A stretch of 64,000 bases of DNA from Oenococcus oeni DSM 20252 = AWRIB129 (lineage in GTDB: Bacteria; Bacillota; Bacilli; Lactobacillales; Lactobacillaceae): contig NZ_AQVA01000002.1 in NCBI RefSeq assembly GCF_000372485.1, forward strand, positions 85,655 to 149,654. Direction: 5' to 3'. The notes below the pieces were generated by a model. The model ran no database searches and had not been told where the DNA came from. It was given only the letters and a program-made list of their open reading frames with translations. The translations under genes were made by a program, and so were the position numbers. This document shows positions 56,381 through 59,386 of the stretch, one piece after another; positions within the stretch are counted from its first letter, which is position 1; every line of letters starts with the position of its first letter.

Positions 56381-57995
56381 ACGACTACTTATTCAAACAC
56401 ATCGATTAAATAATTTACTTCTAGCAAGTATTTTTTGTGGTGCGATTTCCACCTTACTTCAGATTTTTATTATTGCAGCGGCTTTTTACTTAATTATTCA
56501 ACATCAATTCAGTTGGACTTATGCGCTAATTTTACTTTTTGTGGCTTTGGCTTTGGGTTTTTCGCGATTTGGTGAACAATATTTGGGACATTTTATTGCT
56601 TTTCATTTGCTGGCAGATTTAAGAACGCAATTATATGATCATTTATTGTCGTTGGCTCCAGCCAAATTGGATGACAAAGAATCCGGTAAGATATTAAAGT
56701 TACTGGTTAAGGATATTGAACAAATCGAGGTTTTTTACGCACATACAATCGCACCAGTTGTGATTGCTGTTCTTCTTTCATTTTTACAAAGTTTCCTGAT
56801 TTTTTTGTTTTCGCCATTGATGGGGACCTTGGCATTACTGTCTTATTTTTGGATTGGGTTTGTCCTTCCTCTTTTCAGAAAGAAGAAGATTGAAAATACG
56901 AGTTCATCTTTATCAAAATATGAAACTGAAAATGATCAGTTATTGAGTGAGACTGTTAACGGAAAAAGCCTTTTGCAACAATTTCAAAAAATCGAACAAC
57001 GAATCTCTCTTTTAGATAAACAGCGGGATTTAATAGGTAATACAATCAAAAAAGGGACTTTTAGCGATTCAGCCGCTGCCACGGCAACTCAATTAAGTTT
57101 ATTATTTTTCTCGATTGCAATGGGATATTTGGCTTTTAATTTCTCTGTTGGGAATACTTTATGTTGGGTAATTGCTTTTACTTTTCCATTTTCTTTTGGC
57201 AGAGTTCTCGCCTTAGCCAATCTTCCAAGTTCTCTAGGCAATGCTTTACTATCTGCTAAGAATATTTTTAAAATTCTCGATGAAAAAGCAGTATCCAATT
57301 TATCTGAAAATCAAGAAATTTCTTTGATCAAACAAAGTCGTTTTGTAGATGTGAATTTTTCATATCCTTTGCGTCCTAATAAAACCGTTTTGAAAGATGC
57401 TTCTTTGATTGGAAAAAAATCGGAAGTCATCGGAATTATTGGCGAAAGTGGAGAGAGGAAGAGCACTTTGATGAAGCTTTTGATGAAATGGTATCAACCA
57501 AAGAAAGGCTTAATAGAAGTATATAGTCATGATTTGCGGAAAATAAAAAAATCCGGCCTTCGCAAACAAATTAATTATGTTGCCCAAAATCCTTTAATTC
57601 TTTCCGGTACGATCCGAGAAAACATAACTTTAAAAAATAATAGTTTTTCTGATTCAAAAATTTGGGAGTCTTTAAAGAAAGTTGAATTGGATAAAACCGT
57701 CAAAAAAATGCCCAAAGAGCTTGATACAAAAATCAGTCGTTTAGAGCAGCGTTTTTCTTCCGGCGAATTGCAAAGACTGGAAATTGCCAGAGCATTGCTG
57801 TACCCGAGTTCAATATTGATTTTAGACGAACCGACAAGCAACTTGGACACCCTTAATGAAGCAATTATAATTAATAGTCTGCAGAATTATTATCGGGGAC
57901 TAATATTTATTGTGATTCACAGGCCAAGTTCACTTTCCTTCACTGAACGGGTTTATCGTTTAGCTGGTGGAGAGTTAGCCGAAATTAAGCAATAA
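56373..57995 (+). CDS. ABC exporter half-transporter (CydC-like) with damaged Walker A
   Basis: 540 residues: a membrane domain with about six helices (1-310), then an ATPase domain. The Walker A loop reads GESGERKST; the glycine before the lysine is Arg (codon AGG at 57456-57458, one base from GGG). The signature is FSSGELQR and Walker B is LILDEPTSNLD. Loss of that glycine normally abolishes ATP binding. With the frameshift in its partner this suggests a decaying exporter, although asymmetric exporters can keep one inactive site. A strong terminator follows. Confidence 0.87.
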   Translation: MLKRLLIQTHRLNNLLLASIFCGAISTLLQIFIIAAAFYLIIQHQFSWTYALILLFVALALGFSRFGEQYLGHFIAFHLLADLRTQLYDHLLSLAPAKLDDKESGKILKLLVKDIEQIEVFYAHTIAPVVIAVLLSFLQSFLIFLFSPLMGTLALLSYFWIGFVLPLFRKKKIENTSSSLSKYETENDQLLSETVNGKSLLQQFQKIEQRISLLDKQRDLIGNTIKKGTFSDSAAATATQLSLLFFSIAMGYLAFNFSVGNTLCWVIAFTFPFSFGRVLALANLPSSLGNALLSAKNIFKILDEKAVSNLSENQEISLIKQSRFVDVNFSYPLRPNKTVLKDASLIGKKSEVIGIIGESGERKSTLMKLLMKWYQPKKGLIEVYSHDLRKIKKSGLRKQINYVAQNPLILSGTIRENITLKNNSFSDSKIWESLKKVELDKTVKKMPKELDTKISRLEQRFSSGELQRLEIARALLYPSSILILDEPTSNLDTLNEAIIINSLQNYYRGLIFIVIHRPSSLSFTERVYRLAGGELAEIKQ

Positions 57996-58029
57996 AAAAG
58001 TTACTATTTTCGAGTAACTTTTTTATTGC
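57989..58029. terminator. Strong bidirectional terminator
   Basis: GCAATAAAAAAGTTACT and AGTAACTTTTTTATTGC form a perfect 17-bp stem with a 7-nt loop, between the convergent ABC exporter and SPFH genes. Confidence 0.95.
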
Positions 58030-58860
58030 TTATTTTTTTATTTTTTGCGTTCCTGAATTCAGCAATTGACCAACGACTGGAAGCTGACCGAAACTGCCGA
58101 CTTGATCGTTTGAAACAACAATTGTATTGGTATCCGATTTTGCCAATTCGGTAAAGGCATTGATGCTTTGGTTTTGAAAGTATTTGTTATCGGCATTTTT
58201 CAATCCAGTTTGAACAGTATCAATTCGATATTTCTCAGCTTCAGCCCGTGTTTTTGTGGCATCAGCTTGAGCTTTGGCTGTTGCCACAATTGCATCGTTT
58301 TTAGCTTTGGTTGTTAACTCAATCGACTTTGCTTCCCCTTCGGCTTGAGCAATTGTTGCAACACGTTCTCGATCAGCTGTTAACTGTTTGTCCATTGCTT
58401 CTTGGATAGCTCGTGACGGAGTTAACTCATCAATATTGATTCGATCAACGTTAATCCCGTAAGTATTAGTTAAATCACCAATAGCCGAAGCTAATTCCTG
58501 GTTTATTCTGGCTGTCGCGCCTAAGGCTTCATTTAAATCCAAACGACCTATAATATCACGTAAGTGACCACGAACTAATTGAGCCATTGATTCTACCGAG
58601 TCGGTGTTTTCGTATTCGTATTTTACAGCATCAGTTACATGATAATTTAAAGTAACGCTGGCAGATACATCCGCGTTATCCTTCGTTATGACTGAATAGT
58701 TCGGCAACTTCAAAGGGCTCATTGCCAAGGTGACTTTCTTTATTCCTTGAAAAAAGGGAATGTAAAAATGAATTCCCGGATCAACACTTTTTCGATATTT
58801 TCCTAATACTTCGACTAATCCTTTATTGTTTTGTGGAACGATCTTAAAAAATAGTGCCAT
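58030..58860 (-). CDS. SPFH/stomatin-like protein without N-terminal membrane anchor
   Basis: 276 residues. The SPFH domain starts at once (KIVPQNNKGLVEVLGKY and DPGIHFYIPFFQ), continues through LVRGHLRDIIGRLDLNEAL and DELTPSRAIQEAMDKQ, then a coiled-coil rich in Ala, Glu and Lys (ERVATIAQAEGEAKS), as in the QmcA/stomatin group. Family members usually open with a hydrophobic anchor; here only MALFF precedes the domain. The gene 8 nt upstream encodes an NfeD-type OB domain, the usual partner of stomatins, but joined to a DNA-binding domain. A normal Shine-Dalgarno sequence (AGGAGA) precedes the ATG. Confidence 0.9.
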   Translation of the reverse strand: MALFFKIVPQNNKGLVEVLGKYRKSVDPGIHFYIPFFQGIKKVTLAMSPLKLPNYSVITKDNADVSASVTLNYHVTDAVKYEYENTDSVESMAQLVRGHLRDIIGRLDLNEALGATARINQELASAIGDLTNTYGINVDRINIDELTPSRAIQEAMDKQLTADRERVATIAQAEGEAKSIELTTKAKNDAIVATAKAQADATKTRAEAEKYRIDTVQTGLKNADNKYFQNQSINAFTELAKSDTNTIVVSNDQVGSFGQLPVVGQLLNSGTQKIKK

Positions 58861-58868
58861 TTTCTCTC

Positions 58869-59246
58869 CTAATTTGCCATTTCCATTTTTCTCAGCGTTA
58901 AGACATTGCCATTGGCTTCAAGAATAACGTAATTAGCTGTTTTATCGACTTTTTGGTTATCTTCAATTAAATAGCGGTAATAGATTCCCGAAACTTCAAC
59001 GAGACCATTCTTGTCGTTAATTCTTTTTCCGGGTATCAGTGTACCAACGAACTGTCGATCCTCGAAAGAATTATTTTTAACATCTTTTTCAAGAATTTTT
59101 GTGATATAAGAATTTACACTTCGATTGTCAGCGGCAGCTAAGCGCGTGATTTTTTCGTGTAATTCAGGATCAATTCGTAATGCTATATTTCCGGATTTTT
59201 TCGTGCTCGTAAGTTGCCCCCAATTTCTATAACTCCATCTGGACAA
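58869..59246 (-). CDS. Ribbon-helix-helix domain fused to NfeD-like OB fold
   Basis: 125 residues in two parts. Residues about 18-55 (SGNIALRIDPELHEKITRL and NRSVNSYITKILEKD) match the Arc/HicB-type ribbon-helix-helix DNA-binding fold. Residues about 65-122 (GTLIPGKRINDKNGLVEVSG through EANGNVLTLRKM) match the soluble OB-fold at the C-terminus of NfeD. No membrane segment is present. The start is TTG, because an in-frame stop lies just upstream and no earlier start exists; minus-strand TATCAT ends 5 nt before it. The pairing with a stomatin gene is typical of NfeD, but the DNA-binding fusion is not known to me. Confidence 0.75.
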   Translation of the reverse strand: MSRWSYRNWGQLTSTKKSGNIALRIDPELHEKITRLAAADNRSVNSYITKILEKDVKNNSFEDRQFVGTLIPGKRINDKNGLVEVSGIYYRYLIEDNQKVDKTANYVILEANGNVLTLRKMEMAN

Positions 59247-59265
59247 TGATCATGATATCACATTG
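59244..59265. promoter_or_regulatory. Palindrome cluster over the RHH-NfeD start
   Basis: CAATG and CATTG arms enclose two short palindromes, TGATCA (59247-59252) and TGATATCA (59253-59260). The cluster covers the putative -10 and the TTG start. Paired short palindromes suit ribbon-helix-helix repressors, so autoregulation is a reasonable guess. Confidence 0.45.
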
Positions 59266-59386
59266 ATATATTTTTTATATTAAAGTTTCTTTAATGTTTA
59301 AATGCTCAAGCATAAATTACTAAGGGTTTTTAATCGTGAAAGGCCGCTCTGTTTAATTCCAGCGTATAATATGTCTTGCGTAGATT

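Follow-up and report, generated by a model that had tools for sequence, protein, structure and literature searches.

Introduction

Cage-forming scaffolds of the SPFH class, which include stomatin, prohibitin, flotillin and HflK/C, are found widely, and little is understood about how they are regulated and about their NfeD partners. The closest described systems are QmcA-YbbJ of E. coli (8z5g), in which the SPFH protein and its OB-containing partner are both membrane proteins, and PH1511 with 1510-C of Pyrococcus horikoshii (3wwv, 3bk6), where 1510 is built of a ClpP-type protease, a membrane part and an NfeD domain. On the side of gene regulation, ribbon-helix-helix (RHH) folds are dimers, and toxins act as co-repressors with RHH antitoxins. 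According to the portion of PMC2636767 at hand, ten of 12 prokaryotic SPFH subfamilies have an N-terminal membrane anchor and two are predicted soluble; the same portion describes NfeD partners of SPFH proteins and a ClpP-NfeD fusion (ClpP-NfeD1b family), and contains neither "DNA-binding" nor "Lactobacill".

Here we analyse a two-gene operon found in a window of 64,000 nucleotides (the whole stretch of DNA considered) from Oenococcus oeni, formed by an SPFH gene and a gene for an RHH domain fused to an OB domain that is probably of NfeD type (RHH-OB). With QmcA-YbbJ it shares an SPFH protein and an OB-containing partner, and the models of both its proteins match chains of that complex (ranks 1 and 2), but its SPFH protein has no anchor, its partner has an RHH domain instead of a transmembrane part, and it carries a candidate operator. 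The P. horikoshii pair provides the top fold match for the partner OB domain and a matched stomatin core, although the domain make-up of 1510 is unlike that of RHH-OB. With Arc/HicB/NikR-type autoregulators the locus shares the RHH fold, a strand arginine and palindromic sites near its own promoter (candidates in the present case), whereas an NfeD-type OB as second domain and an SPFH neighbour gene set it apart. We know of no RHH family with an NfeD-type OB domain beside an SPFH gene, and a literature search that reached few subscription papers found no report of an RHH-OB protein or of its site; the single paper found to name SPFH, NfeD and ribbon-helix-helix together is a study of Agrobacterium membranes.

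Results

Layout of the operon

The RHH-OB ORF lies upstream of the SPFH ORF on the minus strand, and the 8 nt that separate them are as the earlier note on this DNA had it (Table 1). A frameshift concealing an anchor or a longer NfeD protein was considered and is ruled out, because of this 8-nt gap and because close relatives share the identical layout. Translation of the RHH-OB ORF probably does not begin at the listed TTG: the start homologous to the ATG or GTG of sister loci is 59210, which reads ACG and gives a protein of 113 aa. Of the same-genus loci, two (the window's own and its sister L003) have ACG at this position and three others ATG or GTG; a G-rich stretch lies just 5' of the ACG, and an ACG start is possible. 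It should be noted that start codons in the locus comparisons were assigned mechanically. A hairpin from the terminator consensus scan (2 found vs 1.2 expected) is the probable terminator, shared by the SPFH operon and a convergent ABC-transporter-like ORF.

Table 1. Features of the operon, in window positions.
Feature	Position	Strand	Basis
SPFH (stomatin/QmcA-like) ORF, 276 aa, without N-terminal anchor	58030..58860	-	Band_7, model, fold match
RHH + NfeD-type OB ORF, 125 aa as listed from TTG	58869..59246	-	Pfam, model, fold matches
Ribbon-helix-helix domain, residues ~19-59 of listed ORF	59070..59192	-	Pfam HicB residues 11-52; Arc/NikA fold matches
RHH strand GNIALRID, with R24	R24 at 59175-59177	-	part of RHH domain
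NfeD-type OB domain, residues ~60-125	58872..59069	-	fold matches 3wwv, 8z5g_AA, 2exd; hhalign via stand-alone OB
Candidate operator ATATCA-ATG-TGATATCA	59253..59269	-	kept in 5/5 fetched same-genus loci and family-wide
Extra TGATCA beside candidate operator	59247-59252	-	sequence
Expected translation start: GGGGG, 6 nt, ACG	59208..59221	-	DNA alignment, 5 same-genus loci
Hairpin, 20 pairs and T tracts (probable terminator)	57986..58032	.	consensus scan

The SPFH protein

The SPFH protein matches Pfam Band_7 with 5.6e-34 (118.2 bits, cut-off 23.6) and, in a profile search, is the sole Band_7 match of the O. oeni genome. Its AlphaFold2 model, from an alignment of 45 sequences (mean pLDDT 75.6), finds chain A of QmcA-YbbJ (8z5g_A) at rank 1 of a PDB fold search (E 3.6e-15), followed by HflK/C and human stomatin, with the P. 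horikoshii stomatin core (3bk6) also among the matches. No N-terminal helix was found in this model, whose first strand starts at residue 4, and a 17-residue window with mean hydropathy of at least 2 near the N-terminus was found in 0 of the 117 SPFH proteins, the window's included, that are encoded beside an RHH domain with the strand arginine described below. The absence of an N-terminal anchor, which had been claimed from the sequence, is thus confirmed by both the hydropathy scan and the model.

The SPFH8 and SPFH9 subfamilies are likewise predicted soluble but, compared by description and in the portion of PMC2636767 at hand, have no NfeD or DNA-binding partner described for them, unlike the window protein. 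As for lactic acid bacteria, the accessible part of PMC13209313 lists an O. oeni SPFH protein under ethanol stress, judging from where the list stands among the proteins that mscL overexpression lowers, and that of PMC8010061 deals with a Lactobacillus crispatus SPFH protein that is anchored and 293 aa long. Two further observations concern the reading frame itself. In some Pediococcus loci, namely L039, L043, L044, L046 and L239, the SPFH frame is open for ~75 more, hydrophilic, N-terminal residues, and in L147 (G042) a stop (one TAG) interrupts it, no partner ORF being found there.

The RHH-OB protein

The partner matches a HicB-type RHH domain in Pfam with 7.7e-10 (39 bits vs a cut-off of 21), and Arc at its cut-off (20.4 vs 20.4). 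PF01957 (NfeD) gave no match in it at E<=1; relatives match that family with 2.3e-5 to 0.011, all under the cut-off and the best of them (2.3e-5) in one bare OB, and the O. oeni genome has no other PF01957 match at E<=0.001. The AlphaFold2 model of RHH-OB (64-sequence alignment, mean pLDDT 86, pTM 0.56) displays an RHH and a beta-barrel. Its RHH half finds Arc (1bdv/1par), NikA (2ba3) and other RHH proteins in Foldseek with probability 0.99, and against the PDB the whole model has 3wwv at rank 1, 8z5g chain AA at rank 2 and 2exd, an NfeD homologue, at rank 4, these three together with 3cp0 and 2k14 being among the first nine matches (E 0.03-0.4). None of its 249 Foldseek matches reaches E<=0.001, the named ones having E of 0.03-0.6 with probabilities of 0.92-1.00, perhaps because each match spans half of the model. 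No transmembrane part was found in the partner (113-125 residues), the only elements of the predicted structure being the barrel, the helices of the RHH and one further short helix.

The link to NfeD comes in two steps. In profile comparison (hhalign), RHH-OB matches the OB proteins that stand alone in other Lactobacillaceae (99.1%, E 1.5e-18), and these match canonical NfeD of the order's other families (91%, E 1.1e-6; L199, which had been read in a wrong frame, left out of the NfeD alignment). The direct comparison of RHH-OB with NfeD is weak (5.6%), hence the kinship rests on the intermediates and the fold, and the OB half would be akin to NfeD by this indirect route of sequence and modelled structure. 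The architecture put forward in the earlier note, an RHH plus an OB fold of NfeD type, therefore stands: Pfam gives the RHH above its cut-off, and the model of RHH-OB, predicted singly, contains both folds with Arc/NikA and NfeD-type matches. Of the two domains sought by HMM in the 125-residue protein, the RHH was found above cut-off and NfeD was not, at E<=1, so that the NfeD identity of the OB is sustained by fold matches and intermediate profiles and not by a direct one.

Distribution and neighbourhood

A first survey of 100 genomes found the homologue in 31 (own included), all of them Lactobacillaceae, and in 0 of the 39 genomes of other families; one genome (G032) yielded no locus. Searching named genomes with the SPFH alignment gave 199 loci, the best 80 of which were retained; all 80 are titled Lactobacillaceae, and an Oenococcus kitaharae locus is among them with 90% identity. 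In these best 80 the RHH-OB gene is upstream of the SPFH gene on the same strand in 80 of 80, one of them (L055) broken by a contig end, and the gap between the genes reaches up to ~460 nt. The 80 loci span 20 genus labels, and the next commonest neighbour family (ORFs of at least 110 aa) occurs under 4 of these 20; hence the pair seems to form a unit of its own. A conserved third operon gene was sought among the same neighbour ORFs of the 80 loci, and none was found.

In a search for RHH-OB beyond the family, at the level of the class, 81 of 250 genomes match the RHH-OB profile at E<=0.001, and the matches listed, the window's own apart, end before position 65 of the 109 in the profile, i.e. 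they are generic RHH. The first gene of the pair also matches 19 Ligilactobacillus plasmid records, 10 of which, those listed, are from L. salivarius and annotated as hypothetical protein; in one of them (L266, Ligilactobacillus salivarius plasmid NZ_CP137609.1, 1498-2685) the next gene is annotated as an SPFH domain-containing protein. This plasmid pair adjoins an S8 serine peptidase gene. A phage origin of the pair was considered as well and is ruled out, as there was no match among phage records.

The idea that the locus is a new arrangement holds in that the RHH-OB/SPFH pair is real, but it is no single case, the operon being spread through the Lactobacillaceae; RHH-NfeD fusions beside SPFH genes, which the earlier note had proposed to look for in other genomes, are present in all of the best 80 named loci.

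A candidate operator that co-varies with the RHH-strand arginine

Upstream of the RHH-OB gene, ATATCA-NNN-TGATATCA is conserved in an alignment of five same-genus loci, and a similar site is present in many genera, where TGATATCA-like copies are often paired, 11 bp apart. In the protein, R24 of the RHH strand occupies what we take to be the position of Arg13 in Arc, and, going by Arc structures, this strand arginine presumably contacts DNA. Counting 108 loci (without L055, L026 and L001, the last being the same place as L002), 95 have the arginine, all of which have TGATATCA with at most one mismatch within 150 nt (89 exact), and 0 of the 13 non-arginine loci have it within one mismatch. Among representatives at 75% identity (n=46), the exact site is found in 32 of 37 arginine members, with a mean of 0.4 and a maximum of 3 in dinucleotide shuffles of these 37; none of the 9 non-arginine representatives has it within one mismatch, and 15 of 492 other upstream regions of the representative loci contain it exactly.

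A larger set was obtained by adding 99 loci (60 + 39), hand-picked among the matches listed for spread of genus and distance and not at random. There, duplicates included (e.g. the overlapping L005/L036) and L001 excluded, the site is exact in 107 of the 117 arginine loci and has one mismatch in 9 more (116/117, L243 being the sole member without it), is absent within one mismatch from all 20 RHH-OB loci lacking the arginine (0/20), and occurs with one mismatch in 3 of 55 loci with a bare OB partner, a class in which L055 was wrongly counted. When distinct protein pairs are counted once (188 of 209), the figures become 91 exact plus 7 of 99 for arginine loci, 0/17 for non-arginine RHH and 3/55 for bare OB. 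On a tree of the SPFH proteins (107 rows, after excluding L055, L222, L227, L147 and L039 and then near-copies, i.e. >90% SPFH identity within the same class), the best tree has 12 changes of the arginine, of which 7 are forced by supported branches; in 7 independent pairs the site follows the arginine in 6.6 on average and goes the opposite way in 0 (sign test p 0.016-0.06, from a quick tree with several long branches). The role as a regulator that had been suggested for RHH-OB is borne out to this extent, by a conserved upstream candidate operator that co-varies with the RHH arginine.

Concerning the reach of the putative regulator, the exact 17-mer is found in 11 of 61 family genomes, at no more than one place in each; in 8 this place is the SPFH operon, and in G029, G036 and G013 it lies elsewhere. 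The RHH-OB protein therefore looks more like an autorepressor acting locally than like a general tether to DNA. Allowing one mismatch, the 15-mer is matched at 13 places in the O. oeni genome, vs 3 for a reversed control pattern, and two of these places are exact, one of which is the SPFH operon promoter. These near-matches make further targets possible, and a small regulon wider than the own operon may exist. The second exact ATATCANNNTGATAT site of this genome is at G000:C5:58051-58065.

Other partner states in the family

Many distant Lactobacillaceae loci have an SPFH protein with an N-terminal hydrophobic segment, preceded by a bare OB of ~65 residues or by no partner. None of the 117 arginine loci was counted as having an anchored SPFH protein; such proteins were counted in 3 of the 20 RHH loci that lack the arginine, 47 of the 55 with a bare OB (2 of the 8 exceptions being reading errors, namely L055, and L222, where the SPFH start was miscalled and the anchor missed) and 10 of 12 partnerless ones. 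On the tree rows, 2 of the 57 with an RHH are anchored, and 44 of the 50 without. We also considered whether re-anchoring of SPFH goes together with RHH loss; these counts are suggestive of it, but with four independent pairs the association is not significant.

Domains other than RHH occur on the same OB type. In G131 it is a MazE-type domain (Pfam 4.9e-10), and the gene is preceded by a perfect 27-bp palindrome (-52 to -26 nt relative to its start), which 0 of 500 shuffles equalled; the genome has one 21-bp site of this palindrome, and among 15 genomes of the genus one has the fusion. In G049 and G145 an HTH-like domain sits on the OB, with HTH_59 values of 0.066 and 0.0013, under the cut-off, and a weak palindrome with 8-bp arms in one of the two genomes (p 0.034) and none in the other. 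Both kinds of gene lie beside an anchored SPFH. The case for a separate recruitment is strong for MazE-OB, in its single occurrence, and moderate for HTH-like-OB; given these fusions, DNA-binding heads on NfeD-type OB domains beside SPFH probably arose more than once. Further variants were seen: in L151 and L211, beside an anchored SPFH, ~58-65 unrelated residues precede the OB of the partner (those of L151 without Pfam match), and L230 and L231 have tandem OB genes ahead of one SPFH gene.

The 20 RHH-OB loci without arginine and motif, together with the many bare OB partners, indicate that the partner function needs no DNA binding; and since arginine and site are absent together while the OB remains, docking on SPFH is likely the older function, to which, as we infer, DNA binding was added as a regulatory one. 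The same loci could also speak for an RHH that is a dimerisation module, which would pair OB domains in order to bridge or order the soluble SPFH, TGATATCA being unrelated to it: RHH folds are indeed dimers, 20 loci have kept the domain while lacking both arginine and motif, and the OB is found bare in other members of the family. We nevertheless consider this rather unlikely, as the motif follows the changes of the arginine in independent lineages and other DNA-binding domains sit on the same OB type.

Site versus promoter

The sequence of the site itself invites a second interpretation, as the extended -10 consensus is TGnTATNNT and TGATATCAT fits it, so that TGATATCA might be merely an extended -10 element (TGnTATCAT) and not an operator. 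A promoter that departs from consensus at no more than 2 of 12 positions is present in 31 of the 116 arginine loci with site; its -10 overlaps the exact site in 11, a degenerate second copy in 10 and neither in 10, although for four of these last (L022, L043, L112 and L126) the true promoter may be another than the one that scores best. Examples with the -10 clear of the palindrome are TTGACA-17-TATATT with the site 11 nt on (L049), TTGACT-17-TACAAT (L039, L239) and TTGACA-17-TACACT (L016, L048). Since the -10 is often overlapped by the site, part of the conservation of the latter may be promoter sequence. However, the exact palindrome is not the -10 in 20 of the 31, the site occurs in just 15 of the 492 other upstream regions, and no non-arginine RHH locus (0/20) has it even with one mismatch, hence a mere promoter element seems to us quite improbable. 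A palindrome that is the -10 in about one third and stands beside it in the rest is what is expected for an operator laid over a promoter.

In L007, L012, L052 and other Leuconostoc and Companilactobacillus loci an ATG is located ~6 nt past the TATCAT of the palindrome, which would give a leaderless mRNA if TATCAT were the -10.

Proposed mechanism

The explanation that we favour, and regard as likely on the basis of sequence comparisons and structural models, is that an NfeD-type SPFH partner was converted to an autorepressor of its own operon. The RHH domain would stand where an NfeD-type partner has its membrane part; as a dimer, it would repress the two-gene operon by binding, at the operon's own promoter, the candidate TGATATCA sites, of which there are often two at a spacing of 11 bp. 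The OB domain may dock on a cytosolic SPFH assembly, by analogy with QmcA-YbbJ, and docking would alter either the amount of free repressor or its binding, such that expression tracks the level of SPFH assembly. The sign could go either way, docked SPFH titrating the repressor or serving as a co-repressor, as toxins do with RHH antitoxins.

That the pair is instead a toxin-antitoxin-like module, with RHH-OB as antitoxin and SPFH as toxin, is suggested by the HicB/Arc-type RHH, the regulator gene coming first in a two-gene unit and the presence of the pair on Ligilactobacillus plasmids, but is scarcely credible for a neighbour gene that is an SPFH without known toxin fold, an OB that matches NfeD domains and a pair spread under 20 genus labels.

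The autorepressor could be one instance of something broader. As a tentative proposal, which may well turn out to reach too far, the cytosolic SPFH assembly might be the sensor of a transcription factor, where NfeD-type arms with repeatedly recruited DNA-binding heads (RHH, MazE-like, HTH-like) report the state of cage assembly or cargo to their own promoter.

If true, an SPFH partner that doubles as repressor of the operon would be a direct genetic read-out of the SPFH state, and the SPFH-NfeD pair would be able to operate away from the membrane. The system sits in easily handled food bacteria, offers a testable candidate operator and comes with a natural series of mutants in which arginine and operator are lost, and it provides a reading for genes annotated as hypothetical protein, as in the 10 plasmid records listed. 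A scaffold usually studied at membranes is thereby, apparently, tied to gene control in lactic acid bacteria.
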